Shown here piece by piece: positions 17,579-38,935 of a stretch of 64,000 bases of DNA. The notes under the pieces were generated by a model, which was given only the letters and a program-made list of their open reading frames with translations, made no database searches and was not told where the DNA came from. The DNA is from Wenjunlia tyrosinilytica (lineage in GTDB: Bacteria > Actinomycetota > Actinomycetes > Streptomycetales > Streptomycetaceae), in assembly GCF_014646055.1 (NCBI RefSeq), contig NZ_BMMS01000009.1:124001-188000 (forward strand), read 5' to 3'. The position numbers and the translations under genes were made by a program. Each line of letters starts with the position of its first letter. Position 1 is the stretch's first letter.

Positions 17579-17611
17579 GCTCCTGTGATACCCCCCCTTC
17601 CGACGGCCGAT

Positions 17612-18259: not shown

Positions 18260-19500
18260 GGCAGCTCCATCGTGACCATCGTCGGACCGCCCGGCGGGCT
18301 GCTCAAGGCGAGGACTCCGTCGAATGTACCGAGTCGGCGCTCCACCCCGCGCAGCCCCGTGCCCCTCTCGAGGTCCGCGCCGCCTTGGCCGTCGTCGACA
18401 ACTGCTATGCGCAGCATGCCGCCCTCGTGCCTGATGTCGATCCAGATCTGCTCCGCGCCCGAGTGCTTGGCCGCGTTGGCCAGTGTCTCCGACACAGCGA
18501 AGTACGCCGCCGCCTCAACGGGTGCGTCCGCGCGGCCGGACAGCTCGACCGTGACCTCGGTCCTGATGGGTATCCGCAGCGCCAGCGCGCGCACCGCGTC
18601 CCCCAGACCGCGCTCGGCCAGCACCGGCGGATGGATGCCGCGCACCAGGTCGCGCAGCTCGTGCAGCGCCATCGCGGAGGACTCCCGGGCCTGGGCGAGG
18701 AGCAACTTGGCCCGCTCCGGGTCCCGTTCCATGAGCCGCTCGACCGCGCCGAGGCTCATCCCCATGGCCACCAGCCGTGCCTGGGCGCCGTCGTGCAGAT
18801 CCCGCTCGATGCGGCGCAACTCTGCCGCCGAGGTGTCAAGGGCATCCGAGCGGGTCTCGGTGAGCCGCTCGACGCGCAGCTCCAACTCCCGCTCGTGGTT
18901 GGGTCCCAGCAGAGCGCGGGCAACCAGGGCCTGGCCGCGTGTGATCGCCGGGCCGAAGCGCAGACCTGTCGCCAAGAACACGATGCCGAGGCCCGCCGCC
19001 ATGAACGCGCTGGTCTGGCTCGTGACATGGATGAAGCCGTACCACTCGCCGCCGCCGGCGTCGTAGACCGGCTTCCACACACCCGCGGCGAGTACGAAGC
19101 CGTACACGCCCTCGCCGATCAGCGCCAGGGGCAGGATGCCCAGAGTGAAGCCGACGGAGGGGTCGATGAACATCCACAGCAGATCCCGCCAGGTCGCCGG
19201 GTCCCGCAGCATCCACTGGCAGCGCTGCGCCTGACCGATGACGCCGCCCTGGAACCGCGGCTCCTTCCGGTAGGGGACGGCGACCTCCACGCCGAACCAC
19301 TCATCGGAGATGCGTCTGCGCATATTGAGTTGGGCGCGTGCGCTCTGCATGAGCACGGGAGTAGTGAGGACACCGATCCCGATCGGGATGAGAGCGATGG
19401 AGACCGTGACGAGGATGTAGTGGGCCAGGGACACAGCCATCGAGAGCACCGCGACGGTGAATCCCCGTACCGCCGCGAGTAGTCCAGCCTTGACCGTCAT
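18223..19500 (-). CDS. membrane sensor histidine kinase, HisKA_3 type
   Basis: 425 residues. Four or more hydrophobic segments (about 20-60 and 130-195) precede the dimerisation box RRIERDLHDGAQARLVAMGM, whose His is the phosphorylation site. An HATPase domain follows with ETLANAAKHSGA, VVDDGQGG and GTGLRGVERR. ATG 19500 has GGGAGG four nt before it and fits better than the ATG at 19539. It partners the overlapping NarL-type regulator. The stimulus is unknown; membrane-embedded sensing is likely because no large extracellular domain is present. Confidence 0.9.
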   Translation of the reverse strand: MTVKAGLLAAVRGFTVAVLSMAVSLAHYILVTVSIALIPIGIGVLTTPVLMQSARAQLNMRRRISDEWFGVEVAVPYRKEPRFQGGVIGQAQRCQWMLRDPATWRDLLWMFIDPSVGFTLGILPLALIGEGVYGFVLAAGVWKPVYDAGGGEWYGFIHVTSQTSAFMAAGLGIVFLATGLRFGPAITRGQALVARALLGPNHERELELRVERLTETRSDALDTSAAELRRIERDLHDGAQARLVAMGMSLGAVERLMERDPERAKLLLAQARESSAMALHELRDLVRGIHPPVLAERGLGDAVRALALRIPIRTEVTVELSGRADAPVEAAAYFAVSETLANAAKHSGAEQIWIDIRHEGGMLRIAVVDDGQGGADLERGTGLRGVERRLGTFDGVLALSSPPGGPTMVTMELPCVLSSPKTSSS

Positions 19501-19635
19501 GCCGCCTCCCAAGCCGATGTCGTCGTGCACGGCCAACACTGCCGCATGGGCGCAGGCGGGTCACTGGGCCTTGCACCCCAGTGGGGGTGTAGCTGAGTGC
19601 ACCGCGGATCGGGGATCTGGACGGCTGGGGGCGGG

Positions 19636-19661
19636 GCCGTCGAATTCGTAGCGTCGACGGC
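19636..19661. promoter_or_regulatory. inverted repeat in front of the MMPL gene
   Basis: GCCGTCGA and TCGACGGC are separated by 10 nt and lie 26 nt upstream of the MMPL start. A second symmetric element (CACCCC, 4 nt, GGGGTG) lies at 19574-19589. Either could be the operator of the divergent response regulator. Confidence 0.4.
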
Positions 19662-19686
19662 GACATCACATCGCTGGGGAGACGTC

Positions 19687-21897: not shown

Positions 21898-21920
21898 CCG
21901 ACCGACGGGTGCCGTTCGGG

Positions 21921-21951
21921 GGAGGGTGCCGTTCGGGACAGGGCACCCTCC
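21921..21951. terminator. hairpin between convergent MMPL and modBC genes
   Basis: Ten-bp arms GGAGGGTGCC and GGCACCCTCC around an 11-nt loop. It can serve both strands, as the two genes end at 21897 and 21991. Confidence 0.75.
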
Positions 21952-21990
21952 CGCCGGGTCCTGCCGGACACCGTGGCCACTGCCCAGTGA

Positions 21991-24171: not shown

Positions 24172-24258
24172 ATCGCTGCCAGGTGTGCTCCGGGGGCCGC
24201 TGGGGCCCGGAGGAGCCTGTCCGTCCCCGCTCGGGCAGGCTCCCCGTCCTGTGCCGGA

Positions 24259-25080
24259 TCAGGGCTTCTGGAATCCGGCGTCGTGCAGGATCTTCTGCGC
24301 CTCGGCGGAGCTGAGCCACTTCACGAAGTCGGCGGCGGCCTCCGCCTGCTTGGACTGCTTGAGCGTCACTGCGGGATAGGAGGCGATGGCGTTCTGGGCG
24401 TCCGGGATCGTGACGGCCTCGACCTTGCCCGGAGCGGTGGCGGCGTCGGTGACGTACACCAGGCCCGCGTCGGCCTCGCCGAGCTCGACCTTGCTGAGCA
24501 CCGCCCTCACATTCGGCTCCTGCGAGACCGGCTTGACCTTGACGTGCTGCCCGTCGAGCACCTTCTTGCTGTAGCGGCCGACGGGGACCTCGGGGGCGGC
24601 CAGGACCACCTTGAGGTTCTTGTCGGAGAGGTTCTTCAGGCCTTGGACCTTCTTCGGGTTGCCCTTGGCGACCGCGATGACCAGGCGGTTCTTGGCGATC
24701 ACCGTCGGAGTGCCGGTGTCGGCCTTGAGCGCGTCGACGGTCTTGGTGTCGGCGGTGACCAGCGCGTCGGCCGGGGCGCCCGCCTTGACCTGGGCGGCGA
24801 GTTCCTGGGAGCCGGCGAAGGAGAACTTCACCTTCGTTCCCGGGTGCTCCTTCTCGTAGGCGGCTCCGGCCGTCTTGAACACGTCGGTGAGCGAGGACGC
24901 GGCGAGCACCGTGAGGTCGGCGCCCTTGTCCGAGCCGCCCGAGGAGGAGGCCGCGGGCGAGCCCTTGTCGGCCTTGCCGGAGTCGGACTCGTCGTCGCTG
25001 CCGCAGGCCGCCAGCGGCACGAGGAGGGCGGCGGTCAGTGTGGCGGCCGCGACACGGCGGCGGGACAGCAGAGGGGACAT
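24259..25080 (-). CDS. modA: molybdate-binding lipoprotein
   Basis: 273 residues. The lipoprotein signal ends in lipobox LAAC about 25 residues in, followed by a Ser/Asp/Lys-rich linker. The binding domain has the ModA landmarks [33 protein letters not shown] and [11 protein letters not shown]. It captures molybdate at the outer membrane face for the ModBC fusion encoded 87 nt downstream. It lies downstream of a TOBE regulator in the same direction, so the three probably form one operon. Confidence 0.92.
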
Positions 25081-25143
25081 GAGGGTATGGCTCCTTGCAT
25101 GGGAGAGCCCCCCGGGGGGACGGCCCGGGACTGGCGAGCCGCG

Positions 25144-25539
25144 TCAGGCGCGGTCGATATGGACGCTGGTGGACTTCACGCGGGCGGTGGCCTCCATGCC
25201 CACCTCCAGGCCCAGTTCCTCGACGGCCTCCCTGGTCAGCAGGGAGACCAGCCGGTGTGGACCGGCCTGGATCTCCACCTGGGCGGCGATGTCGCCGAGC
25301 TTGACCGCGGTGACGATGCCCGGAAACGCGTTGCGCACCGAGGTGTAGGAGGGTTCGTCGTCGCCTCCGGCGCTCTCCGCCAGCGACACCGAGAACGCCG
25401 CCAGGTCCCGTCCGTCGATCAGCCGCCGCCCGGACTCGTCGCGATGCGTGGGCACCCGCCCGGCATCCGCCCAGCGGCGGGCGGTGTCGGGACTGACGCC
25501 GAGCAGGCGCGCCGCCTGACCGATGGTGTAGGACCGCAT
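25144..25539 (-). CDS. HTH-TOBE molybdate-responsive DNA-binding protein
   Basis: 131 residues. The N-terminus is an excisionase/MerR-like HTH (YTIGQAARLLGVSPDTARRWADAGRVPTHR, cited as two motifs: IGQAARLLGVS and TARRWADAGR). The C-terminal 65 residues are a TOBE/Mop domain (GIVTAVKLGDIAAQVEIQ, ARVKSTSVHIDRA) that binds molybdate. It is probably the regulator of the mod operon, fulfilling the role of ModE with a different HTH. The start is ATG 25539 or GTG 25548. Both lie in or next to the palindrome CCGCATATGCGG, and no clear ribosome site is seen, so the message may be leaderless. Confidence 0.85.
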   Translation of the reverse strand: MRSYTIGQAARLLGVSPDTARRWADAGRVPTHRDESGRRLIDGRDLAAFSVSLAESAGGDDEPSYTSVRNAFPGIVTAVKLGDIAAQVEIQAGPHRLVSLLTREAVEELGLEVGMEATARVKSTSVHIDRA

Positions 25540-25605
25540 ATGCGGCACTTTAGAGCCGAGAAGCTCGCATCTGCAAATAGGCTGGATGATCCAGGCAGCA
25601 GATGC
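25534..25605 (-). promoter_or_regulatory. palindromes in the mod operon promoter
   Basis: CCGCATATGCGG at 25534-25545 is a perfect 12-bp palindrome over the start codon. Upstream, GCATCTGC (25567-25574) and GCAGATGC (25598-25605) flank an inner CTGGAT-G-ATCCAG (25582-25594). These are candidate operators for the TOBE regulator. The rest of the gap, 25606-25816, is a Pro/Arg-coding-like low-complexity GC stretch with no gene seen. Confidence 0.5.
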
Positions 25606-25816
25606 ACCGATGGTTGGGTCATCACCCGGTCGAGCAGCTCACGGCCCGAGCGCCGCCCCGCCGCGCGGCCGCCGCCGCCCCGCCGCCACCGCCGCGCCAC
25701 AGCGCCGCCGCGCCACAGCCGCCGCCACCACCGCCACCGGGAAGTGATGCCCCGGACGTCACCCGGCGTGCCGTTTCGCGTCCGCAGGGGCACCATGTCG
25801 AGGAGGAGGTGCCGCC

Positions 25817-26020
25817 ATGGAGCATGAGATGCGCGCCGAGATCCACCCGGGGTCGAGCCGAGTGAAGATCTGGCACATGGTGCGCAAGACCGGCAGTGTG
25901 GCCATGTGCGGCCGCGAGCTCGAAGCCGGCTCCCCCACACGGAGCGATGAGGCCTGGGGGAGCACGGAGGAGCCGTTCTGCCACTCGTGCGGGGCCATGT
26001 ACCTGCGCGAAGTGCCGTAA
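25817..26020 (+). CDS. small putative zinc-binding protein
   Basis: 67 residues. ATG 25817 has a strong GAGGAGG upstream. The protein has a Cys pair layout MCGREL and FCHSCGAMYL about 27 residues later, compatible with a single zinc site. The loop between them is Ser/Thr/Glu-rich. It resembles small actinomycete proteins of unknown function. No partner is obvious; the neighbours are the mod operon (divergent) and corA (convergent). Confidence 0.7.
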   Translation: MEHEMRAEIHPGSSRVKIWHMVRKTGSVAMCGRELEAGSPTRSDEAWGSTEEPFCHSCGAMYLREVP

Positions 26021-26052
26021 CGGCTCCGGTCCCCCGTGACCGGCCCCGTTCG

Positions 26053-27243
26053 CTACAGCCAGTCGCGGCGTTTGAAGACCAGGTAGAGCACCAGGCAGAC
26101 CACGGCCATCAACAGCAGGGCGAACGGGTAGCCGCCGAGCCAGTGCAGCTCCGGCATGTGGTCGAAGTTCATGCCGTAGACGGTGCCGATGAGCGTGGGC
26201 GCGAAAAGGATCGCCGCCCAGGAGGAGATCTTCTTGATCTCGTCGTTCTGCGCGTTGCTGGCCTCGGCGAGACGGCGCATCTCCTCGTTCTGCGCCTGCG
26301 TCACCAGCGTGGCGTTGACCGACATGATGTCGGTGAGCATCTGCCGGAAGCCGTCCACCCGCTCCACCACCGTGGTGGCGTGGTCGGCGACGTCCCGCAG
26401 GTAGCGCTGGAGTTCCTCGTCGGTGCCGTACTTCTCGAAGCCCGCGGCGAGCCCCTCCAGCATCTCCAGCAGCGGCCGGGTCGCCCGCTGGAACTCCACG
26501 ACCTCCCGGGACAGCTCGTAGATACGCCGGGAGACCTTGGGGTCGCCGCCGAAGACCTCGGTCTCGATCTCGTCGATGTCGTTCTGGAGCCCCGCCACCA
26601 CGGGGGCGTAGCCGTCGACCACGGCGTCCAGCACCGCGTAGAGCACCGCCTCCGGCCCCAGCCGGAGCAGATCGGGGTCGTCCTCCATCCGGCGGCGCAC
26701 GGCGGCGAGGTCCGGGGCCTGGCTGTGGCGCACGGTCAGCACAAAGCCGGGGCCCACGAACAGGTGCAGCTCGCCGAAGTCGACCTCCTCGGCGGCGTCG
26801 ATGTAGCGGGCTGCGCGCAGGACGACGAAGAGGGTGTCGCCGTAACGTTCCAGCTTGGGCCGCTGGTGGGCCACGATCGCGTCCTCGACCGCCACCTCGT
26901 GCAGCCCGAACTCGTCCGCCGCCGCCAGCAGCTGCGCCTCGGTCGGCCGGTAGAGCCCGATCCAGGCCAGCGAACCCGGGTGGTCGGGCAGCCGGCGCCA
27001 GGCGTCCGCGAGCGTGGGCGGTGAGTCGATGCGGTGGCCGTCGCGGTAGATCGCGGCGTCGATCACACTGCGCTCGACGGGAGTGGCCGCCGGTGTCGGA
27101 CGGGGGTCCATCTCGTGCTCGGGCGCGGTGGGCACGGCTGGGGGCGGGGCACCGCGGTGGGAGCCGTCACCGGCGGGGTTCGCCGCGTTGGAGCGGCTGC
27201 CGCGCTTGGTGGGCAGGAGGGCACGAGGGCGCCAGTCGGACAT
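26053..27243 (-). CDS. corA: CorA-family magnesium/cobalt transporter (first copy)
   Basis: 396 residues. A long cytoplasmic domain contains VAVEDAIVAHQRPKLERYGDTLFVVLRAA and coiled helices. Two C-terminal membrane helices follow, with the pore signature YGMNFDHMPEL between them and a basic tail (FKRRDWL). CorA forms pentameric Mg2+/Co2+ channels. ATG 27243 is fixed by GGAGG five nt upstream; further upstream the frame is not protein-like. About 55 Pro/Ala/Arg-rich residues precede the conserved domain. It is divergent from a second corA 220 bp away. Confidence 0.93.
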   Translation of the reverse strand: MSDWRPRALLPTKRGSRSNAANPAGDGSHRGAPPPAVPTAPEHEMDPRPTPAATPVERSVIDAAIYRDGHRIDSPPTLADAWRRLPDHPGSLAWIGLYRPTEAQLLAAADEFGLHEVAVEDAIVAHQRPKLERYGDTLFVVLRAARYIDAAEEVDFGELHLFVGPGFVLTVRHSQAPDLAAVRRRMEDDPDLLRLGPEAVLYAVLDAVVDGYAPVVAGLQNDIDEIETEVFGGDPKVSRRIYELSREVVEFQRATRPLLEMLEGLAAGFEKYGTDEELQRYLRDVADHATTVVERVDGFRQMLTDIMSVNATLVTQAQNEEMRRLAEASNAQNDEIKKISSWAAILFAPTLIGTVYGMNFDHMPELHWLGGYPFALLLMAVVCLVLYLVFKRRDWL

Positions 27244-27463
27244 GGGGACCTCCGAGGCGAGGAGAGCGCTGCGGATGCTTCGGGCAACCAGGGCAGCTTC
27301 ACCGCTGCGCTGATGAGAACCGTTCGGCTTCAGTGCGTACTGGGAGGTTGGCTGCTCATGGCGGGCCCCACCTCCTGTGTCTCCTCGTGGATTCTCGGCC
27401 GGGGTCAGGCTATACCAGTGCGGACGGGCGGACAGCCCAACGCCCAACCCGAAGGAGCCCGCC

Positions 27464-28558
27464 ATGTCGATGATCCGCAGTCTCCGGAAGGCGGTGCGCC
27501 TCCCGCACCGCCGACCGAAGGTCGACCTCAGCCATCCCGCCCGCTCCCCGCTGGGCAGCTCGGTCGTGAACTGCGTGGTCTACCTCGACGGCAAGCGGCA
27601 GACCGGCCACTGCCCGGCGGGCGAGGCCATCGCCCGCGTCCGCAAGTCCGGCAACGGCTTCGTCTGGATCGGCCTGCACGAACCCAGCCAGGCGGAGATC
27701 GCCGATGTCGCCGAGCTGTTCGGGCTGCACCCGCTGGCCGTCGAGGACGCCGTCCACGCCCACCAGCGGCCCAAGGTGGAGACGTACGACGAGACGCTGT
27801 TCACGGTGGTCAAGACCGTCCGCTACGTCGAGCACGACCGCCTGACCGCCACCAGCGAGGTCGTGGACACCGGCGAGATCATGGTCTTCACGGGGCCGGA
27901 CTTCGTCATCTCGGTCCGCCATGGGCGGCACGGCTCCCTCGGCCCGCTGCGCGAGGAACTCGAGGCCGACCCCGCCCGGCTGGCCAAGGGCCCGGCGGCC
28001 GTGCTGCACGCGATAGTGGACCACGTCGTGGACGACTACCTCGTGGTCACCTCGGCCGTTCAGGACGACATCGACGTGGTCGAGACCGACGTCTTCGCCC
28101 ACCGATCCGGCCGTGGCACCGACCCCACCCGGATCTACCAGCTCAAACGCGAGCTGCTGGAGCTGAAGCGGGCCGTGGCACCGCTGGACCGCCCCCTCCA
28201 GGCGCTGTCCACCCAGCCGGTCCCCATGATCGACCTGGACACCCGCAAGTACTTCCGCGACGTCTCCGACCACCTCGCCCAGGTCACCGAGCGGATCACC
28301 GCCTTCGACGACCTGCTCAACTCGATCCTCCAGGCGAATCTGGCGCAGGTGACCGTCGCCCAGAACGAGGACATGCGCAAGATCAGCGCCTGGGTCGCGA
28401 TCATCGCCGTCCCCACCATGGTGTGCGCCATCTACGGCATGAACTTCGACCACATGCCGGAGTTGCGCTGGACGTACAGCTACCCCGTCGTCATCGTGCT
28501 GATGGTCGTGGCGTGCGTGGTCATCCACCGCGGATTCCGGCGCAACGGGTGGCTGTGA
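27464..28558 (+). CDS. corA: CorA-family magnesium/cobalt transporter (second copy)
   Basis: 364 residues. It shares with the divergent neighbour the motifs FVWIGLHEPSQAE, AVEDAVHAHQRPKVETYDETLF and the pore signature YGMNFDHMPEL between two C-terminal helices. The N-terminus is shorter and basic (RKAVRLPHRRPK). ATG 27464 is preceded by GAAGGAG. The two copies look like an old duplication, and the shared 220-bp region must hold both promoters. No Mg-responsive RNA fold was recognised in it. Confidence 0.93.
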   Translation: MSMIRSLRKAVRLPHRRPKVDLSHPARSPLGSSVVNCVVYLDGKRQTGHCPAGEAIARVRKSGNGFVWIGLHEPSQAEIADVAELFGLHPLAVEDAVHAHQRPKVETYDETLFTVVKTVRYVEHDRLTATSEVVDTGEIMVFTGPDFVISVRHGRHGSLGPLREELEADPARLAKGPAAVLHAIVDHVVDDYLVVTSAVQDDIDVVETDVFAHRSGRGTDPTRIYQLKRELLELKRAVAPLDRPLQALSTQPVPMIDLDTRKYFRDVSDHLAQVTERITAFDDLLNSILQANLAQVTVAQNEDMRKISAWVAIIAVPTMVCAIYGMNFDHMPELRWTYSYPVVIVLMVVACVVIHRGFRRNGWL

Positions 28559-28585
28559 CCTCCTGATCCGGGGATCATCGCTGGT

Positions 28586-30106
28586 ATGACCGACTCCGCT
28601 CCCGGAAGCGTCCGTCTCTCCGAGGCGAGGGGGCGGTGGGTATTGACGACCACCGTTCTCGGCTCCGGCATGGCGATGCTGGACAGCACGGTCGTCAACG
28701 TCGCCCTCCCCCACATCGGCGAGGACCTGGGCGCGGATCTGGCCGGCCTCCAGTGGACCGTCAACGCCTACATGCTCACGCTCGCGGGACTGATCCTGCT
28801 CGGCGGGGCGCTCGGGGACCGCTTCGGGCGTCGCCGGGTATTCGTCCTGGGCGTGGTGTGGTTCGCGCTGGCCTCCCTGCTGTGCGGGATGGCGCCGAAC
28901 GCCGGGGTGCTGATCATCGCCCGGGCGCTGCAGGGCATCGGCGGTGCGCTGCTGACGCCGGGCTCGCTGGCGCTGATCCAGTCCACCTTCCATCCCGACG
29001 ACCGGGCGCGCGCTGTCGGCGCCTGGTCCGGGCTCGGCGGGGTGGCGGCGGCGGTCGGACCGTTCCTGGGCGGCTGGCTGGTGGACGGTCCCGGCTGGCG
29101 GTGGGTGTTCCTGATCAATCTGCCGGTCGCGGCGGTGTGCGTACCCGTGGCGCTGCGGCACGTTCCGGAGTCGAGCGATCCCCGCCAGGCGGGACGGACC
29201 TTCGACGTCACGGGGGCGGCGCTCGCCGCGCTGTCCCTCGGCTCCTTGACGTATGCGCTGATCGCGGCTCCGGGGCGGGGCGCGTCGGCACAGGTGGTGC
29301 TCCCGGCGGTGGCCGGGGTGCTGCTCGGTGCGGCGTTTGTGGCGGTGGAGCGGCGCCGGGCGGACCCGATGCTGCCGCTGGAGATCTTCCGGTCCCGCCA
29401 GTTCACGGCCGTCAACGCCGTCACCGTGTGCGTGTACGCGGCCTTCGGCGGCTTCTTCTTCCTCGCCGTGCTGGACCTTCAGGTGGTGGCCGGGTACTCG
29501 GCGCTCCAGGCGGGCACCGCGCTCCTGCCCACAACGATCATGATGCTGCTGCTGTCGGCCCGCTCCGGCCAGCTCGGGCAGCGCATCGGCCCGCGCATCC
29601 CGCTCACCGTGGGCCCGCTGCTGTGCGCGGCCGGCATGCTGTTGATCACCCGGGTCGGGCCGCACGCCGTGTACTGGCGCGATGTGCTGCCGGCGCTGCT
29701 GATCCTCGGCCTGGGCATGGTCGCCCTGGTGGCCCCCCTGACCGCGACCGTCCTGGCGTCCGTGGACGTGGGGCGGGCGGGTCTGGCCAGCGGGGTCAAC
29801 AACGCCGCCGCGCGGGCCGCCGGTCTCATCGCGGTGGCCGCGCTCCCGCTGCTGGCGGGGACGAGCCCGGAGGCCTACCGGTCGGCGACGGAGTTCTCGC
29901 GGACCTTCCGCCGGGCCATGCCGTTGTGCGCGGGGATCCTGGTGGTGGGCTCGCTGATCGCGTGGTTCACGGTCCGCTCGAATGTCCTGGCACGCGCCCC
30001 CGAGGAGGAGGGCGCCTGCGCCCCGGAGTGCCGGATGCACTGCGGGATGGTCTCGCCGCCACTCGACCCCGGCCACACACGGACGACGCCGACGCACGCG
30101 TCCTGA
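28586..30106 (+). CDS. MFS drug exporter, EmrB/QacA (DHA2) type
   Basis: 506 residues with about 14 hydrophobic helices. Family motifs are LDSTVVNVALPHIGEDL in helix 1, the loop LGGALGDRFGRRRVFVLG (motif A) and LQGIGGALLTPGSLALIQ (motif C region). It exports hydrophobic compounds by proton antiport. The C-terminus is a hydrophilic tail with three Cys/Met-rich residues (ACAPECRMHCGM). It starts 27 nt after corA, possibly as a read-through partner. No TetR-type regulator adjoins it. Confidence 0.9.
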   Translation: MTDSAPGSVRLSEARGRWVLTTTVLGSGMAMLDSTVVNVALPHIGEDLGADLAGLQWTVNAYMLTLAGLILLGGALGDRFGRRRVFVLGVVWFALASLLCGMAPNAGVLIIARALQGIGGALLTPGSLALIQSTFHPDDRARAVGAWSGLGGVAAAVGPFLGGWLVDGPGWRWVFLINLPVAAVCVPVALRHVPESSDPRQAGRTFDVTGAALAALSLGSLTYALIAAPGRGASAQVVLPAVAGVLLGAAFVAVERRRADPMLPLEIFRSRQFTAVNAVTVCVYAAFGGFFFLAVLDLQVVAGYSALQAGTALLPTTIMMLLLSARSGQLGQRIGPRIPLTVGPLLCAAGMLLITRVGPHAVYWRDVLPALLILGLGMVALVAPLTATVLASVDVGRAGLASGVNNAAARAAGLIAVAALPLLAGTSPEAYRSATEFSRTFRRAMPLCAGILVVGSLIAWFTVRSNVLARAPEEEGACAPECRMHCGMVSPPLDPGHTRTTPTHAS

Positions 30107-30305
30107 CCACCCGTACGACGCCGGGGCCATCAGGGCCGGGCGCCGCGGGTCGGCGCGTCGGCGGGTCGGCGGGGCGCGGGCAGCCGATGAAGGCGCCCGC
30201 ACCCCCGCCCACGAAGGAGCTCGGCGCTCGAGGACCTCGGTACTGAAGGGGTCGGCACTGAAGGGGTCGGCACGAAAGTCGCTCGCGCGAACGAACCCCG
30301 CGAAC

Positions 30306-30992
30306 TCAAGCCGCCTTGGTGCCCGTCAGATGCGCGAACACCACGATGTTGTCCGCGTAGTGGTGCGCCTTCGCCGAGAAGTCCCCACCGCAGGTGATCA
30401 GGCGCAGGCCCGCGTGATCGAGGTTGCGGTAGACCTCGATGGTGGGAAACCTCTCCTTGGCGTAGCGGGCGGTGCGGTCCACCGTGAACACGGCCGTGGT
30501 GCCGTCCTGGCGGCCGACCTCGACGGTGTCGCCCTTCTTCATCTGGGCGAGGCGGAAGAACACCCCGGGCGAGCCGTTCCAGGTCACATGCCCGGCGATC
30601 ACCGAGGGGCCGAGGGCGCCCGGTGTGGGACCGGGGGTGAACCAGCCGGCCTTGTCGGGGTCGCGAGGGGTCTGCATGGCCTGCTTGGCGTCGAGGCCGA
30701 GGCGCTCCAGCGACGAGGAGACATTCAGGCTCGGGATGCTGATCTGCTCGGGGGCGGACGCCTTGAGCACCGTTCCCCTGACCTTCGTTCCGGCGCGGGC
30801 CGAGTCGTGCCCCTGGTGCTGTCCCTGCTGTCCCTGCTGCTGTGCGGCGGGGCCCTGCGGTGGAGCCGGGTCCTGGCGGCCCATGGCGACCACGATCAGC
30901 GCGACGGCGACCAGGGCGAGGACTGCTGAGCCGATGTAGAGCGGGCGGCGGCCACGTCGTGGTCCGGCCGCGTGCTGGGAGGAGTTGGCCAT
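30306..30992 (-). CDS. class F-like sortase
   Basis: 228 residues. An N-terminal membrane helix (LYIGSAVLALVAVALIVVAM) is followed by a Gln/Pro/Gly-rich stalk. The sortase barrel has catalytic His in VIAGHVTW and catalytic Cys in RLITCGGDF. The catalytic Arg expected after the Cys is not obvious: the stretch there reads AHHYADNIVVF. Sortases attach surface proteins by cleaving a C-terminal sorting signal. It lies 19 nt downstream of a CHRD-domain surface protein, its possible substrate. Confidence 0.85.
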   Translation of the reverse strand: MANSSQHAAGPRRGRRPLYIGSAVLALVAVALIVVAMGRQDPAPPQGPAAQQQGQQGQHQGHDSARAGTKVRGTVLKASAPEQISIPSLNVSSSLERLGLDAKQAMQTPRDPDKAGWFTPGPTPGALGPSVIAGHVTWNGSPGVFFRLAQMKKGDTVEVGRQDGTTAVFTVDRTARYAKERFPTIEVYRNLDHAGLRLITCGGDFSAKAHHYADNIVVFAHLTGTKAA

Positions 30993-31011
30993 CGTCGTGT
31001 CCCGTCCGCCC

Positions 31012-31794
31012 TCAGCCTTCTTGTCCTTGCTCGCGCCTGCGGGCCAGGAACCAGGCCCCGGCCGCGCCCGCGAGCGTCACCCCGCCCACACCGAACATCG
31101 CCGGGGACTCGATTCCCGCGGTGGACCCGGAGCCGGTCTCCACACCGCCTGCGGGCATGGCGCCGACCGAGGCTCCCTCGACCTCACCGCAGTCGGTGGG
31201 GGCGGTGGCCTCCTGGGGCAGCTTGGGGTCGAGTTCGCTCTTGCCCTTGCCGAAGTCGTACTTGCCGTTCTTGTTCGGGTCGATGCCGTGCTGGACGATG
31301 TGCAGGTCCTGGATGTGGTCGGCGACGTCCTGCGAGACGGCGATGGTCCGCTCGTAGGACAGGTGCCCGGTGCTGTCGGCGTTCGGCATACGGTCCACCG
31401 CGAGCCCGCTCTTCGCCGAGGTGTCGCCTTCCGTGGTCAGCGAGATATTGATGTCGCCGTACATGGGCACGGCCTCGGTGGTGGTGACGATGCCGTCGCC
31501 GTCGGCGTCCGCGCTGGCGTCGGGGCAGTGGAAGTTGTGGCCCTCCGTGGAGCCGTGGAGGTGCTGGGCGTGCGGGGCGCCCGGGGTGAGGCCGTCGGCC
31601 TCGATCTTCACAGTCAGCTGGGTGCCGTTCACCCCGAGCATGACGGTGCCGGTCGCACCGCTGTTGTTGAGCGACTCCAGATTGATCTGGAACGCTGAGC
31701 CCGGGGCCGCGCTCGCGGGCGCCGCGGCGGCGAGAGCGAAGATGGTGGGCAGGGCGGCAAGCACGGCGAACCGCGCGGTGCGCTTGGCTTTCAC
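31012..31794 (-). CDS. secreted CHRD-domain protein with C-terminal membrane anchor
   Basis: 260 residues. Signal peptide (residues 1-29, ending APASAAPG), then a CHRD-like domain (LTVKIEADGLTPGAPHAQHLHG) and acidic DADGDG and DPNKNGKYDFGKG stretches resembling calcium loops. A Gly/Ser linker precedes a C-terminal helix with the tail FLARRREQGQEG. That tail has sorting-signal architecture, but no LPXTG or LAXTG stands before it (the stretch reads GIESPAMFG). It starts at GTG 31794 and shares an operon with the sortase. Confidence 0.8.
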   Translation of the reverse strand: MKAKRTARFAVLAALPTIFALAAAAPASAAPGSAFQINLESLNNSGATGTVMLGVNGTQLTVKIEADGLTPGAPHAQHLHGSTEGHNFHCPDASADADGDGIVTTTEAVPMYGDINISLTTEGDTSAKSGLAVDRMPNADSTGHLSYERTIAVSQDVADHIQDLHIVQHGIDPNKNGKYDFGKGKSELDPKLPQEATAPTDCGEVEGASVGAMPAGGVETGSGSTAGIESPAMFGVGGVTLAGAAGAWFLARRREQGQEG

Positions 31795-32236
31795 GGTCTC
31801 TCATCCCCTTGATCGCGGCTGCCCCTCCGTTGAGGACAACCACCCGGTGGTCGTGGCACAGGCGCGGTGTTTCCTTGCCTGCACTCTGGGTTTCGGAGCG
31901 GGAAGGGGCGTGGATTGGTCCCGGCGGCAACTTCCGTCCCGGACATGTCGTCAGGGCCCGGGTCGCGCAGGTCAGTCGGGGGTGGCCCGCGGGGAACCGG
32001 GATCGGCGCAGGCGATTTCGAGGACGAGCCCATTCCCCGAGTCGGCCAAACCTTTGAAGTAGATGGGCACGATGCCGGCACCCGGGTTGCCGACGGGGGC
32101 GGTGAACGGGGCGGCAACTGGGGCGGTGACGGGGCGGTGACCGCGGAACACCGAACGCCCCGGACCACTGGGGTCCGGGGCGTTCGCCTACGTGCTCACC
32201 CTAGGTACACACACGGCACAGGGCCGCGCGGGACGG
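31795..32236. other. intergenic region between CHRD gene and protease gene
   Basis: The 442 bp contain the promoter of the CHRD/sortase operon near 31800-31900 and the protease terminator at 32152-32186. No gene is convincing on either strand. Confidence 0.6.
32152..32186 (-). terminator. terminator of the trypsin-like protease gene
   Basis: A perfect 15-bp stem, CGAACGCCCCGGACC and GGTCCGGGGCGTTCG, with a 5-nt loop, about 50 nt beyond the stop codon. Confidence 0.9.
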
Positions 32237-33256
32237 TCAGGTGTCGTTGCCGACCTGGTTGTACAGCTTGCGGACAGCCTCACCGAAGTAGGGGCTCTCG
32301 TTGCCGACCTTGTCGTAGTCAAGGGTGCTCTGGACACCGTTGGCGTAGCCGAGCATCGAGGTGGTGCTGAACTTGCGGAACCACGGGCCGCCGCTCGAGC
32401 CGCCGTTGAGGTTGCAGTTGGGGAGCTTGAGCCGCCCAGCCGAGTTCTCCTGCTGCGTGGTGCCCTTGCACAGCCACTGGGTCCGGCCGTCGAACGGGCT
32501 GGCGGCCGGGTAGCCGTACACTCGCACGCTCACCTTGTGCGGGTAGTTGAACGAGATTCCGTTACCGCCCACACGGCTGACCAGGGTCTTGCCGTTCTGC
32601 TTGTAGACCGTCACAAAGCCGACGTCGTAGCGGAAGTCGGTCTTCGTCGACCAGGCGCTGAAGGTGTTCAGGCGCTTGGCGGAGAAGCGGCCGTAAGGCT
32701 CCTTCCCCTTGTAGTACTTGGGGACGAAGATCCACTTTTGCATCCACTTCTTGCCCTTGCCGCCGTGCACGCAGTGCCCGGCCGTCAGGACAAGCAGCTT
32801 CGAGGAGCTGTTGATCGCGCTGGCCGAGCAGACGTAGTTCTTCTTGTCGCTCGGGTTGTAGAAGAAGACCTTGCCCACGGAACGCACGCTCTTCGCGCGC
32901 ACCGCACGCCCGCCGGCACGGTCGGCGGCCGAGTCGGACACCGCGTCCGCGACCGGAGCGGAACCGGCGTAGCTGGTCGGCGCGCCCTTCTCGACACGCT
33001 CGCTGATCGCTCCCGGGTTCACCTTCGGGGCCTTCGGGCCGGAAGCCGGGATCGCCTGACGCATGCGCTCGGGCGTCCAGTAGTCCTGCGCACGCTGCGA
33101 GTCGATCGCGGAACCCGCGGACGAGGAGACAACGGTGTCCGCGGCGGTGTGCTTCGGAGTGCTGGCGTGTCCCTGCACCCCCGTGGTGAGGACGAGCGCC
33201 GAAGAGGCAAGAGCTGCAACGGCCCAGGTTTTCCGCCTGATTGACCGATTTGTCAC
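32237..33256 (-). CDS. secreted trypsin-like serine protease
   Basis: 339 residues. A signal peptide with a basic start and hydrophobic core (KTWAVAALASSALVLTTG) leads to a pro-region of about 100 residues. The protease domain has the complete triad: His in LTAGHCVHG, Asp in FRYDVGFVTV and Ser in NGGSSGGPW. It belongs to the glutamyl endopeptidase/trypsin-like clan and acts outside the cell. GTG 33256 is preferred over ATG 33268 because GGGGGA lies just before the GTG and nothing precedes the ATG. Confidence 0.9.
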   Translation of the reverse strand: MTNRSIRRKTWAVAALASSALVLTTGVQGHASTPKHTAADTVVSSSAGSAIDSQRAQDYWTPERMRQAIPASGPKAPKVNPGAISERVEKGAPTSYAGSAPVADAVSDSAADRAGGRAVRAKSVRSVGKVFFYNPSDKKNYVCSASAINSSSKLLVLTAGHCVHGGKGKKWMQKWIFVPKYYKGKEPYGRFSAKRLNTFSAWSTKTDFRYDVGFVTVYKQNGKTLVSRVGGNGISFNYPHKVSVRVYGYPAASPFDGRTQWLCKGTTQQENSAGRLKLPNCNLNGGSSGGPWFRKFSTTSMLGYANGVQSTLDYDKVGNESPYFGEAVRKLYNQVGNDT

Positions 33257-33487
33257 TGATTCCCCCATGCTTGTGGTCACTGACGGTAGTAAGTGAACCA
33301 CGATGGGATCTTCATATGATCAACATTTAGCAACGGGTATTCAACAGCCCTGTCCCGAACGGCATATGGCGCCGAACCCGCACGGCGAGACCGACGTCGG
33401 GCCCAACCGGAACGGTGAGGAGGGAACGCACCGGCGCGTGGAAACCCCTTCGCTGCCAGGGCCGCCACCCCCGCGACAATCCCGCTC

Positions 33488-34117
33488 ATGGCTGCCCGAT
33501 CCCCGCGTCTGCGCTTCGAGTCGGACCGGCTCGACGACCACCTCGTCGCAGACGCCGTCATCGACCACCATCACCCCTCGATCCGCGAGAGCGCGGTCGC
33601 ACGGGACCCACACGACGACATCACACACGACGACACCGCGCACGCCGACACCGCGCACGCCGACACCGCGGTGGCCCGAGCGGCTTTCGAGTTCGTCAGG
33701 GACGAGGTGTCGCACTCGGCGGACGTCGGCGAGTGGAGCGCGGCCTACGTGGCCTCCGACGTCCTCCGCGAGCGCAATGGGATCTGCCACGCCAAGTCCC
33801 ACCTCCTGGCAGCGCTCCTGCGTGCCCGGGGCATCCCCACCGGCTTCTGCTACCAGCGCCTGACCGGTGCCACTCCCGGCAGCTTCGCCCTGCACGGCCT
33901 CACCGCGGTCCACCTGGTGTCCGCGAACCCCTGGATCCGCCTCGACGCCCGCGGCAACAAGGAGGGCGCCGACGCCCGCTTCTGCCTGGAAGGCGAACAC
34001 CTGGCCTGGCCGGTCGCCCCTTCCCGGGGCGAGATCGACTACCCGCTGGTCCATACGTCCCCGCCCCCCGCCGTCGTGGCGGCCCTGGCCACCGCCCGCC
34101 CGGGCATCGCGGGCTAG
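33488..34117 (+). CDS. transglutaminase-like domain protein
   Basis: 209 residues, ATG start. It has the transglutaminase-like core with Cys in ERNGICHAKSHLLAALLRARGIP, His in LHGLTAVHL and an acidic partner in WIRLDARG. Proteins of this kind are cysteine peptidases or amidases. Between residues 42 and 62 is an odd His/Asp/Thr/Ala repeat (THDDTA, HADTA, HADTA) encoded by 15-bp repeats at 33629-33672. No signal peptide, so it is cytoplasmic. The substrate is unknown. Confidence 0.85.
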   Translation: MAARSPRLRFESDRLDDHLVADAVIDHHHPSIRESAVARDPHDDITHDDTAHADTAHADTAVARAAFEFVRDEVSHSADVGEWSAAYVASDVLRERNGICHAKSHLLAALLRARGIPTGFCYQRLTGATPGSFALHGLTAVHLVSANPWIRLDARGNKEGADARFCLEGEHLAWPVAPSRGEIDYPLVHTSPPPAVVAALATARPGIAG

Positions 34118-34256
34118 CGGTGGCCAGGCGACAACCTCCCGACGCAGCTGTGGCCCCGAGGCACGGCGAGACCCGCCGGCTCGAGATCACATCCGGGAAG
34201 AGCCCGCGCCGCCGTCCGCGACGGGCCGCACGAGGCTCCGGAACCCCACGCCGAAC

Positions 34257-34280
34257 GCCCGGACCTTGATCGGTCCGGGC
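34257..34280 (+). terminator. hairpin downstream of the transglutaminase-like gene
   Basis: GCCCGGACC and GGTCCGGGC arms around a 6-nt loop. It lies just outside the tRNA-like att copy. Confidence 0.65.
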
Positions 34281-34301
34281 CCTCCGCGTTCTGGATCCGC
34301 C

Positions 34302-34326
34302 AGCCGCCTGCCGGGGTCGAACCGGC
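34302..34326. other. tRNA-Thr 3'-end-like duplicate, candidate att site
   Basis: AGCCGCCTGCCGGGGTCGAA plus the next 5 nt repeat the last 25 nt of the tRNA-Thr gene (38862-38886) with 3 mismatches, in the same orientation. They keep a perfect 5-bp T-stem. No upstream half of a tRNA is present. The copy fits the distal attachment site of an integrated element. Confidence 0.6.
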
Positions 34327-34378
34327 CACCCGAGCCGTCGCAGCGCATGATCCGCCGGCCGCGATTAAGCTTGCAGAG

Positions 34379-36016
34379 GTGGCGTGGCCGGTCATTTTCG
34401 TGGTGGAACACGACCCGAGCTCGTTTGATGTGCTGCTCACCGATCTCACGCGACGGTTCGGCAGAGCATTCGCGGTGAAGGGCGCGGGCTCGTCGAAGGC
34501 TGCGCTGACCGCTGTCGAGGAACTGGCGCGGGACGAGGAACCCGTCGCACTGCTGCTGGTGGACGACGGCTCCGACGACGTCCTCATACGGGCCCATGAG
34601 CTGTATCCGCGCGCCAAGCGTGTGCTGCTCGTGGACCGCGACTACTCGTCGACGAGTCCAGCGGTCCAGGCGATCGCACTCGGCCGCGCGGATTACCACC
34701 TCGTGCGGCCATGGATGGACAACGAAACGATGTACCGCGCCGTGAGCACGTTCCTCTCGTCGTGGACGAAGGAGCAGGAGCCGACCTTCGAACTGTTCCG
34801 CATCGTCGCCCGGGAGGGCGACAGCCGCGTGCTGCGGCTACGCGATGTGATGACGCGCTTCAGCATGCCGTTCGGGGTCTATCCGGTGGAACGGGAGGCC
34901 GGACGACGTCTGCTGCGCGAGGCCGGGCTCGACGCGTCGCGGCTGCCGGTGGTGATTCGCCACGACGGCCACGTGTTCGTCGATCCGAGCCTGCCCGACC
35001 TCGCCCGTACGATCGGGGTCAGCGTCACGAACGATGTGAACATCTGCGACGTCGCCATCGTGGGTGCCGGGGCGGCCGGCCTGACGGCGGCCGTCTACGC
35101 CGCCTCCGAAGGGCTCGACACGGTACTGCTCGAACAAGCCGTCTCGGGCGGGCAGGCCGGGACGAGCCCGCTGATCAGGAACTACCCCGGGTTTCCCCAT
35201 GGCATCAACGGTGGCGACCTCATGGGGCAGACCTGCGAACAGGCGTGGCTCATGGGCGCGCACATCGTCTTCGCGCAACAAGCGATCGGGCTCGAACGCC
35301 GCGGCGACCGCCGAGTGGTCCACCTGCTGGACGGCTCGGAGGTCAGTGCCCGTGGGGTCGTGATCACCACCGGTATCGACTGGCGGCGCCTCGGTGTGCC
35401 GAGGCTGGAAGCCCTCGTCGGCTCCGGCGTGTTCTACGGCGCGGCCGTGAGCGAGAGCCGGGCAATGCAGGACCAGGACGTGTTCATCGTCGGCGCCGGG
35501 AACTCGGCCGGGCAGGCCGCGGTGCATCTGGCCAAGCACGCTCGCACGGTCACCTTGGTCGTCCGGGGCGACAACCTGGCGAAGTCCACATCGGCCTATC
35601 TCGTGCGTGCCATCGAGGCGACGCCGAACATCATCGTCCGCCATCGGACCGAGGTGGTCGACGGCGGCGGCGACGGGCACCTCGCATATCTGACGCTCGC
35701 AGACCGCAAGGCGGACGCCGTCGAGCGGGTACCGGCCACCGCGCTGTTCATCCTGATCGGCGGTGAACCGCACACGCAGTGGCTCCCGGACAGCATCGCC
35801 CGCGATGACCAGGGCTACCTCCTGACCGGACGGGACATTCGCGAGAGGTCCGGAGCACACCGCCATCATGGTCGCGCCCCCTCGGTCCTGGAAACGAGCA
35901 TGCCCGGCGTCTTCGCCGCGGGAGACGTACGGAGAGGCTCGATCAAGCGCGTCGCCTCCGCGGTGGGCGAGGGAGCCGCGGCCATCCGCCTGGTGCACGA
36001 CTACCTGGGCACCTGA
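34379..36016 (+). CDS. receiver-domain / thioredoxin-reductase-like flavoprotein fusion
   Basis: 545 residues. Residues 1-130 are receiver-like (VVEHDPSSFDVLL, acceptor region LLLVDDGSDD), but the conserved Lys is Arg (YHLVRPW). About 135-215 is a thioredoxin/glutaredoxin-like segment. From about 220 an FAD domain (VAIVGAGAAGLTAA), an NADPH site (IVGAGNSAGQAA) and a final FAAGDVRRGS follow. The CxxC of thioredoxin reductases is absent (the position reads FYGAAVSESRAM), so it cannot reduce thioredoxin in the usual way. GTG 34379 is the first usable start, with a weak ribosome site. Confidence 0.8.
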   Translation: MAWPVIFVVEHDPSSFDVLLTDLTRRFGRAFAVKGAGSSKAALTAVEELARDEEPVALLLVDDGSDDVLIRAHELYPRAKRVLLVDRDYSSTSPAVQAIALGRADYHLVRPWMDNETMYRAVSTFLSSWTKEQEPTFELFRIVAREGDSRVLRLRDVMTRFSMPFGVYPVEREAGRRLLREAGLDASRLPVVIRHDGHVFVDPSLPDLARTIGVSVTNDVNICDVAIVGAGAAGLTAAVYAASEGLDTVLLEQAVSGGQAGTSPLIRNYPGFPHGINGGDLMGQTCEQAWLMGAHIVFAQQAIGLERRGDRRVVHLLDGSEVSARGVVITTGIDWRRLGVPRLEALVGSGVFYGAAVSESRAMQDQDVFIVGAGNSAGQAAVHLAKHARTVTLVVRGDNLAKSTSAYLVRAIEATPNIIVRHRTEVVDGGGDGHLAYLTLADRKADAVERVPATALFILIGGEPHTQWLPDSIARDDQGYLLTGRDIRERSGAHRHHGRAPSVLETSMPGVFAAGDVRRGSIKRVASAVGEGAAAIRLVHDYLGT

Positions 36017-36126
36017 GCCGATCCGGTCTCGTATGGTCCTCGGCCGTCGGCACAACAGTCGCCTTCCCCCGTGGTGTCGTACGAAGGGACGCCTGCTGCC
36101 GGATCCGCGCCCTCCCGATGGCACGC

Positions 36127-36160
36127 GAACGCCCCGGACCACGTTCGATCCGGGGCGTTC
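36127..36160 (+). terminator. terminator of the flavoprotein gene
   Basis: Twelve-bp arms GAACGCCCCGGA and TCCGGGGCGTTC with a 10-nt loop, followed by TCTTC. The arms are identical to part of the protease terminator at 32152-32186. Confidence 0.85.
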
Positions 36161-36196
36161 TCTTCGTCCCGAGCCACAGGTAGGGGTGGCCGCTGA

Positions 36197-36245
36197 GGTT
36201 GCGGTGGTTGCTGTACTCCGCTGCCGTACAGCAACCACCGCAACC
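36197..36245. repeat. 20-bp perfect inverted repeat with 9-nt loop
   Basis: GGTTGCGGTGGTTGCTGTAC (36197-36216) is followed after TCCGCTGCC by its exact complement (36226-36245). Such a long perfect stem with no U-tract is not a standard terminator. It could be a recombination or replication site, a small RNA or an operator. Confidence 0.9.
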
Positions 36246-36479
36246 GAGCCGATCTCGTCGCACTCGGCTCCGGAGGGCCCGCGCGCTCAGCATTTCAGCA
36301 GGGCGCGAACCTGCGTTTGCCCTTTCGGGCGATGTCTTGTCCACAACTAGTCCACGGCACGAGAGCCTGGCCACGGAAGGGGTGCTGGCAATTGTCTGAA
36401 CCAGCGCCCAGCGCCCAGCGCCCAGCGCTCTGCCTTGGAAGTCGGTGTGCGTGCGGTAGGTTTGAGCGCCACTCAACGG

Positions 36480-36627
36480 TCTCGACATGGCCGACGAGCC
36501 CCGCGGAGTAGTGCGGCTTCTCTCCCAGTTCCTGGTGCGTCAGCCGCGCACGGACACGGAAGTGGCGGGCCACCTCCCCGAAGTACTTCAGCGCTTCGGA
36601 GGGTTGTGCCGGGCCTTCGCCGATCAC
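36480..36627 (-). pseudogene. truncated XRE-family regulator
   Basis: GTG 36627 has GGGAG five nt upstream and begins about 50 codons that match the N-terminus of Streptomyces XRE/DUF397-type regulators (ALKYFGEVARHFRVRARLTH, QELGEKPHYSAGLVGHVETVE). After that the homology stops and the frame runs on as unrelated, repetitive sequence (GCGCCCA repeats near 36400-36425) to a stop at 36295. The remaining 200 or so residues usual for the family are missing. Confidence 0.6.
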
Positions 36628-36916
36628 GATTTCTCCCACGGTGATCACTTGTGTTTGCTCTGCAGTGACCCGCTCCGGCCGGCCGCTGTCCTTCCATCGA
36701 CAGCCGGAGCGGGAGCTAGAGGGTGCTGTGCCGGACCGCCAGCACCACCAGCACGGCAGGCGCGGCAACCCAGAACACGAGCAGGGATGCGATGAACAAG
36801 CACTGCCACACCTCAGCCCACCTGCCCCGGCCCGGCTTGGCGGATGCGCTCCGCCAGGCGCCGCAACGACTCCTCCCGGAACTGCCCGTGTCTTGACCGT
36901 AAGGTGAGCCTGGTGC

Positions 36917-36946
36917 GGCGAGGGGTAGAGGCGCTACCCCTTCGCC
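36917..36946 (-). terminator. hairpin downstream of the island XRE gene
   Basis: GGCGA-GGGGTAG pairs with CTACCCC-TTCGCC, one bulged T, 5-nt loop, beginning 23 nt after the stop. Confidence 0.65.
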
Positions 36947-36968
36947 GAGAGGTACAACCTGTACCCGT

Positions 36969-38189
36969 CTACGCCGGCACGCCGAGCCGACGCGTCAGGT
37001 CGCGCACGTCATCGCGGATCATCGCGCTGCCCGTCGAGGCCAGCTCCGAGACAGTCGAGCGGGCGAAGATGTTGAACCGCGTCGTCTCCGGCGACACCTC
37101 GTATGCCTTCTTCAACAGGTGGACAACCGCAACGTTTTCTCCCTGCATGCTGTACGCCCTTGCCGTTTCCGCCAGGTGGAAGCTGCGGCGCGTCGCCGAC
37201 GGCATCGGCCCGAGGTCGATGCTCGTGGCTGCCTCGATAGCCGCGCCCGCTCGCATCAGGTCGGCGTTCATCGTCACCGCGTAGGCGTCGACCATGCCCC
37301 TACCGAAGATCAGCCACGGGTGCGCGTAGCCGTCGCCGAGTCGGCGAGCGGCCTCGTCGGCGCGGTCCCAGTACCGCTCCGCATCGCCACGCCGCCCCAC
37401 CCGCGCGTAGGACAGGGCGGCGGCCAGCTGGAGCAGCCCCCAGCGCGCCAGCCCCTCCGGGCCGCGGTCCGGGTCGAGCAGGCTGGCCGCTTTCATGGCG
37501 AGGTCCACGCGGGCCTCATGGCGCTCGCCAGCGTCGCGGAAGACGTGGTTCACGTACCAGGCCGCCACCGCGATTGCGTGCGGGCTGTCGGCATCCGGCG
37601 CTGCGGCCATGGAGCGGTCACCGGTGAGCATCACCAGTTCCGGAGCCGGCTGGAACGCCAGGAACAACTGCGCCGGGTGGTAGGTCTGCGCCAACGCCAC
37701 CTGCGCGCCTCGCCGTTCGGTGCCTTCGAGGGTGCGGGCAGCGTGCTGACAGTCGGCCAGCAGGTCCGGCAGCAGGAGGGCGCTGCGGGTCCGGTGGTCT
37801 CCGCTGCCGTGCCACATCTGCCAGGCTTGCCGGACCCGGGCCCCCAGCTCGGCCGCTGTCTCCGGTTCTGCGTCGTTCGCGAAACGGTAGGTGGTCAGAG
37901 CGGCCTTCACCGCAGGCAGGGACTCGTGCACCGCCTTGGTGTAGGTCGCGGCGGCCAGCCGTTCTTCTCCCGTGAGTTCGGCCAGGTCCTCGATGCCCAG
38001 GACTTCCGCGAGGCGCAGGAGCAGCGGCAGGCGCGGCATGTGCAGTCGGCCGGTTTCGATGAACTTGACCCACTCGGTAGAGCGGCCCACAAGCCCCCCG
38101 AGGACCGGGCGGGTGAGACCGGCTCGTTCACGGGCGCGGCGAACTCGCTGGCCGAACGTAAGGGGGGTGTTGTCAGCGTGCTCGGGCAT
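36969..38189 (-). CDS. XRE-family transcriptional regulator with helical C-terminal domain
   Basis: 406 residues. The N-terminal HTH (FGQRVRRARERAGLTRPVL, STEWVKFIETGR) is followed by about 320 residues of Ala/Leu/Arg-rich helices with TPR-like character (AAALSYARVGRRGDAERYWDRA). This architecture is common among Streptomyces mobile-element and signalling regulators. ATG 38189 has GGAG five nt upstream. It lies inside the putative tRNA-Thr island, between a truncated XRE copy and the recombinase remnant. Targets are unknown. Confidence 0.8.
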   Translation of the reverse strand: MPEHADNTPLTFGQRVRRARERAGLTRPVLGGLVGRSTEWVKFIETGRLHMPRLPLLLRLAEVLGIEDLAELTGEERLAAATYTKAVHESLPAVKAALTTYRFANDAEPETAAELGARVRQAWQMWHGSGDHRTRSALLLPDLLADCQHAARTLEGTERRGAQVALAQTYHPAQLFLAFQPAPELVMLTGDRSMAAAPDADSPHAIAVAAWYVNHVFRDAGERHEARVDLAMKAASLLDPDRGPEGLARWGLLQLAAALSYARVGRRGDAERYWDRADEAARRLGDGYAHPWLIFGRGMVDAYAVTMNADLMRAGAAIEAATSIDLGPMPSATRRSFHLAETARAYSMQGENVAVVHLLKKAYEVSPETTRFNIFARSTVSELASTGSAMIRDDVRDLTRRLGVPA

Positions 38190-38336
38190 ACGGACTCCGT
38201 TCTGACCTCGACACTCAAAACGGTATCCCCGGCCGATGTCGGGGAAGGACGAACGGCCCCGCTCCGGCGGAGGCCATCGTGCTGCAGGGGGGACGACCAA
38301 AGCGCCTCCGAGTCCCGAAGGACAGCGGGGGCGCGT

Positions 38337-38550
38337 TCACTTGGTCAGCAGTCCGTAGAGGGTCAGCAGTGGCGCGGCCACTCCGGTCAGTGCGGCCAGG
38401 GAAGGTAGCGGCCAGCGGGTGCGCTCGAGGGTGTGCAGGCGCGTCTCGTGATCCGACACGTCGTCGGTCACGTCCTTGCAGTCGGCCCGAAACGCGTCGA
38501 GATCGGTCTCCACCCGGGATGCCGCGTCATGCAGGGCCCTCGGGAGCTGG
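38337..38550 (-). pseudogene. phage-like coiled-coil/membrane protein, 5' end lost
   Basis: The readable part, LPRALHDAASRVETDLDAFR through VSDHETRLHTLERTRWPLP to a C-terminal helix ending LLTLYGLLTK, resembles small coiled-coil, single-helix proteins of actinophages and conjugative elements. Its expected N-terminus runs into the opposite-strand recombinase fragment near 38550 and no good start codon is seen. Confidence 0.5.
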
Positions 38551-38810
38551 CTGCACGATCTGCGCCATGGGGGGCAACGCTGATCCACGCCGCGGGCGGG
38601 GACATGCACACGATCAAGGAGACGCGGGGGCACTCGGGTATCGCGATCAGCTCGGACACGTACACCACGCTGCCACCCCAGGTTGATGCCGAGACCGCGG
38701 AGGCGGCGGCGAATCTGGTCCCGCTGGAGCCTTTGGGCGGGCCCGGCGGGACGCCCGTTCACGCACCGCTCAGGCACAAGGCCCCGGACGCGATGTCCGA
38801 GGCCGGTCTA
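38546..38810 (+). pseudogene. tyrosine recombinase (integrase) C-terminal remnant
   Basis: WLHDLRHG (38548-38571) is the HxxR catalytic box. In a shifted frame, ATLIHAAGGDMHTIKETRGH and SGIAISSDTYTTLPPQV continue it, with the nucleophilic Tyr. The GGGGGG run at 38569-38574 looks like the site of a one-base loss. The first two thirds of the enzyme are absent. The remnant lies next to the 3' end of tRNA-Thr, and its frame stops inside the tRNA. Confidence 0.75.
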
Positions 38811-38861
38811 AACGTCTCCTCTGGGGATTCCCTGGCTGGTCAGCCGGGGTCCCGGTGGTTG

Positions 38862-38935
38862 AGCCGCCTGTCGGGTTCGAACCGACGACCCTCGCTTTAC
38901 AAGAGCGATGCTCTGGCCAGCTGAGCTAAGGCGGC
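38862..38935 (-). tRNA. tRNA-Thr (anticodon TGT)
   Basis: A 74-nt cloverleaf on the minus strand. The acceptor stem is GCCGCCT/AGGCGGC, the D-arm is TAGCTCAGCTGGC-like, the anticodon loop is CTTGTAA with anticodon TGT, and the T-arm is GTCGGTTCGAACCCGAC. CCA is not encoded. It is the probable integration target of the degenerate element to its left. Confidence 0.95.

Follow-up and report, generated by a model that had tools for sequence, protein, structure and literature searches.

A probable collapsed prophage remnant at the tRNA-Thr(TGT) gene of Wenjunlia tyrosinilytica

Positions 34302-38935 of a 64,000-nucleotide stretch of Wenjunlia tyrosinilytica contig NZ_BMMS01000009.1 (the window) most probably hold the collapsed remnant of a prophage that was integrated by a tyrosine integrase in the 3' end of a tRNA-Thr(TGT) gene. 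We give this reading a probability of about 0.82. An earlier note on this DNA had described the region as a relic integrative element at tRNA-Thr. That description is borne out by the repeat of the tRNA end with its terminator, by kin of the integrase at the same tRNA, by phage remnants and by a gene order that is lacking in relatives, and the evidence supports the more specific name of prophage remnant. The same gene order in all relatives, which would speak against an inserted element, was looked for and not found.

Integrase and lysis-region remnants beside the tRNA

The tRNA-Thr(TGT) gene (38861-38935, minus strand; ARAGORN) is intact. Beside it, on the correct side as the earlier note had it, lies the broken recombinase, which homology and translation identify as the C-terminal remnant of a tyrosine integrase (38549-38783, plus strand). 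The translation reads LHDLRHGG from 38551 and, after a frameshift near 38573, ATLIHAAGGDMHTIKETRGHSGIAISSDTYTTLPPQ from 38574. The whole N-terminal part is lost, leaving no complete integrase reading frame of the kind that an active mobile element would have, and the element in the window is unable to move itself.

Matches to this remnant were found in 66 of 150 genomes of the family, beside tRNA-Lys, tRNA-Met or tRNA-Arg in some cases. Several of the top matches (66-71%) are neighbours of tRNA-Thr(TGT) in related genomes. Five such genomes (G026, G035, G166, G101 and G081) hold the closest intact relatives among whole genomes; the relative in G166 is a Phage_integrase protein, and the first four genomes also carry direct repeats of the tRNA end at distances of 8.7-19.3 kb. 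Homology at the DNA level covers the end of the integrase and continues into the tRNA, at 68-71% across about 400 bp. A viral contig of 38 kb (L185), which carries a primase, ends just after its integrase in a sequence that matches the tRNA-Thr(TGT) core at 28 of 30 positions. The one available genome of the same genus, G001, has no match to the window integrase. A related integrase (57% to the relic) was detected beside tRNA-Met elsewhere in the W. tyrosinilytica genome (contig C1, 327483-327662; L148) and probably belongs to another element of the same integrase family.

On the other side of the integrase remnant, 38337-38528 (minus strand) encodes the C-terminal remnant of a small membrane protein of the phage lysis region (PHROG 5225, E 3.9e-16), with matches in phages and prophages. 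The fragment covers positions 33-90 of the 92 in the profile, and since the match begins at position 33 the N-terminal part of the protein is missing. It is followed by an intact XRE-type regulator of 406 amino acids (36969-38189, minus strand), whose entire length matches PHROG 5823 (E 1.7e-100) and which is on this sequence evidence a regulator of phages and plasmids. In Streptomyces phages the PHROG 5225 protein is encoded beside the endolysin. In the phages Chymera and Eklok the membrane protein comes within a few small genes after the lysin and is itself succeeded by the regulator, and the minus strand of the window keeps the matching order. The XRE gene is probably a surviving gene from the end of the prophage. 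Scanning viral contigs with the regulator gave no relatives, and scanning genome contigs gave two homologues, neither with a tRNA-Thr nearby. In the surroundings of the XRE gene no other Chymera gene has left a recognised remnant. A broken helix-turn-helix fragment of XRE type at 36469-36582 (minus strand; Pfam HTH_31, E 7e-4) scores below the cut-off. The phage-type and XRE-type fragments between the repeats, as claimed earlier, are real.

Two intact prophages from IMG/VR show how these parts could have been arranged. The viral integrases closest to the remnant are those of G176 (34.6 kb; 72%) and G175 (41.0 kb; 70%), which also have the best homologues of the membrane protein (53% and 45%). 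In either prophage one of these genes stands at one end and the other at the far end, on the opposite strand. An endolysin-like amidase gene, judged from its translation, adjoins the membrane-protein gene in each. The left end of G176 aligns (71%) with window positions 38404-38518, and its right end (74%) with positions 38549-38807. The two truncated genes are at most about 30 bp apart in the window, and the interval 38519-38548, where homology to one prophage end has stopped and homology to the other has not yet started, would hold the junction. Since genes from opposite prophage ends nearly abut here, one internal deletion would explain the layout. By analogy, and not as a measurement, this deletion could have removed from about 34 kb (judged by G176) to 38 kb (judged by G175). 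A further phage with the same integrase family (L188) has its integrase on the plus strand, then a site resembling the tRNA end, then XRE and endolysin genes on the minus strand, which is the order that the proposed prophage would require.

These observations are best explained by the following history. The tyrosine integrase of a temperate prophage of siphophage type probably inserted it at the 3' end of tRNA-Thr(TGT), leaving the tRNA gene whole and carrying the original 3' end and its terminator off to the distal side of the prophage, now at 34302. In the integrated form the plus-strand integrase would have stood beside the tRNA, and the genes of the lysis end beside the distal site, all on the minus strand: the XRE regulator, the small membrane protein, the endolysin and then the tail genes. 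A single later deletion, with its ends within the membrane-protein and integrase genes, would have removed nearly the whole prophage and joined its two ends. Further decay would account for the integrase frameshift and for the base changes at the distal site.

The displaced tRNA end and its surroundings

The distal attachment site is represented by a copy of the tRNA-Thr 3' end at 34302-34331 (plus strand), in the orientation of the tRNA. The earlier note had reported a 25-bp copy (22/25) 4.5 kb from the gene; the repeat is real and, though diverged, extends to 26 of 30 bases against 38862-38891, with 19 of the first 21 identical. No comparable match occurred in 100 dinucleotide shuffles. A degenerate 21-mer matches exactly at three places in the whole 8.49 Mb genome (the distal copy, the tRNA and a copy on contig C36); this pattern, with N at two variable positions, was written after the distal copy had been seen, so the count is a guide and not a test. 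The reversed control pattern gave three matches with at most two mismatches across the genome.

A terminator-like hairpin lies beside the distal copy (34250-34296, plus strand). In G001, whose tRNA-Thr 3' half is identical to that of the window at all 45 tested bases, a very similar hairpin follows the intact gene, and the alignment to the window spans hairpin, spacer and tRNA end. The distal copy thus has the appearance of the original tRNA end and terminator, displaced by an insertion. Hairpins of the same type also occur at 36128 and 32154 in the window, so the hairpin alone would be non-specific. A mere chance match to the T-arm at 34302 was rejected in view of the shuffle counts, the genome counts and the terminator alignment.

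Displaced tRNA ends were also observed elsewhere. W. tyrosinilytica has a second copy, which matches the tRNA-Thr 3' end at 33 of 35 positions, on contig C36 at position 7302 (L055:7302-7336). It stands beside a similar terminator hairpin, adjoins RepL-like and ParA/ParB genes and has one base change in common with the distal copy of the window. Two relatives carry two extra copies each to the left of the tRNA, at 4.5 and 13.7 kb in G007 (contig C10, L058) and at about 24 and 29 kb in G008 (contig C20, L060), which suggests tandem insertions. The 19.3 kb tRNA-Thr element of G101 (contig C7, L157:86-16326) contains type I restriction genes, an AIPR protein, a protein kinase and a DUF6119 protein, and is likely a defence island with the same integrase family.

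Gene order is conserved among relatives to the right of the tRNA and not to its left. A block conserved on the left (window 11.3-15.8 kb) stops about 3 kb short of the tRNA in G001, as against about 23 kb in the window. In G007 the genes for a response regulator and a kinase, here at 17.6-19.5 kb, occur in inverted order, as does the regulator in G001. Judged by such comparisons, the left flank of the tRNA (15800-34300) is rearranged relative to G001, so that the empty-site comparison with this sole genus mate is only partial. A single island spanning 15.8-38.8 kb was not supported: a search for its distal site found none, and the inverted regulator and kinase genes point to rearrangement. At 26053-28558, two adjoining genes for CorA-type magnesium transporters run in opposite directions, with about 42% identity.

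Between the distal site and the regulator lies an intact open reading frame for a flavoprotein (34379-36016, plus strand; Pfam PF07992), a possible cargo gene; the earlier claim that both this gene and the XRE gene are complete holds. Its N-terminal region of about 220 amino acids has no Pfam match, and its C-terminal domain is thioredoxin-reductase-like. It is not classed as a thioredoxin reductase: no CxxC motif can be read in the sequence, and TIGR01292 scores 205 bits against an NCBIfam cut-off of 343. The best homologue among 61 genomes (58% identity) comes from another family, the genus mate has a single match of 36%, and a search of plasmids and phages gave no close or contiguous match. 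The proposed deviation in GC and codon use is present, yet mild: GC content at third codon positions is 0.85 for the flavoprotein gene and 0.86 for the XRE gene, versus 0.88-0.96 for most neighbours. The flavoprotein is likely of foreign origin, and could be cargo from the same prophage end or a later arrival. That it and the XRE regulator formed a lysogenic-conversion module at the prophage end, kept in use by the host after the prophage was lost, seems to us a doubtful proposition.

Alternative explanations

Several observations weigh against a prophage origin. No terminase, capsid or tail gene was recognised in 34.3-38.9 kb with Pfam, NCBIfam or PHROGs, so this is not an intact prophage, and with no phage structural gene left the case for the name prophage is made by two gene remnants, a single regulator and the gene order. 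The nearest relatives of the XRE regulator are plasmid and chromosomal copies (72-75% identity), closer than the Chymera protein (64%). G175 and G176 yielded no XRE gene of this family. In the intact tRNA-Thr elements examined, whose integrases are the nearest among genomes, the cargo includes type I restriction, methyltransferase and JmjC genes, and no phage structural gene was recognised. The distal copy matches the tRNA over 30 bases only, with four changes, while the repeats of intact elements match over 42-44. Finally, the copy on C36 makes a second displaced end, likewise beside a terminator, for one tRNA.

The short repeat could mean that two unrelated events are involved: an integrase and phage scar at the tRNA, and a sequence at 34302 that arose by chance or from a tRNA, with the flavoprotein lying outside any element. 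Two of the four changes in the distal copy compensate each other in the T-stem, as might be seen in a copy of another tRNA gene. However, paired changes can also be explained by GC-biased drift, a chance match this good within 5 kb and in the right orientation is very rare, and the homology extends into the adjacent terminator. We consider two separate events unlikely.

Another explanation is a decayed actinomycete integrative and conjugative element (AICE), or an island with an integrase only, in which the phage-like membrane-protein fragment was acquired separately. The plasmid and chromosomal affinities of the XRE gene would fit such an origin, as would the restriction-type cargo and the lack of recognised phage structural genes in the intact tRNA-Thr elements. 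However, no TraB/FtsK-type, Rep or Spd remnant was recognised in the region with Pfam, NCBIfam and PHROGs, although these genes could have been lost by decay, and the membrane-protein remnant directly abuts the integrase remnant, as expected from fused prophage ends. We regard this origin as quite improbable. The collapsed prophage thus remains our preferred reading, and it would represent a well-resolved case of collapse by what seems to be one internal deletion. It illustrates how a repeat and a broken integrase can be made into a testable history. The results also show repeated use of tRNA-Thr(TGT) by this integrase family in these actinomycetes, by a viral contig, restriction islands and relics.

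Comparison with known systems

The target site is familiar from other elements. tRNA-Thr is a known integration site of integrative and conjugative elements and AICEs in Streptomyces (PMC9513070), and integrases of the pSE211 type use tRNA-Thr (PMC3218068). Decayed elements with a partial integrase, cargo and repeats have been described (PMC9513070). The decayed AICEs at tRNA sites in Streptomyces differ from the window, which has no remnant of AICE conjugation or replication genes and does have a remnant of a phage lysis region. The elements in G026, G035, G166, G101 and G081 resemble the window in their integrases and their target tRNA, whereas those examined have other cargo, including DUF3631, and neither such an XRE regulator nor such a membrane protein was found in them.

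IMGVR_UViG_2912679106_000005 (G176) and IMGVR_UViG_2693429751_000005 (G175) are also close counterparts. They resemble the window in the conserved C-terminal stretch of the integrase (70-72%), in the membrane protein (45-53%) and in layout, with the membrane protein on the minus strand at one end and the integrase on the plus strand at the other; their attachment site could not be read. Unlike the window, which is without the whole interior, they span 34-41 kb with endolysin-like and tail-like genes. Streptomyces phage Chymera (KU958700) shares the XRE regulator, preceded by a lysin and a small membrane protein, with a tyrosine integrase on the opposite strand. It differs in being a complete phage of 34.7 kb whose integrase is not among the matches to the relic. 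A Chymera-like remnant prophage has been reported, and remnants make up 47% of predicted actinobacterial prophage sequences (PMC10023795). As remnant prophages are this common in actinobacteria, the case in the window is a clear but ordinary example of a kind already known.
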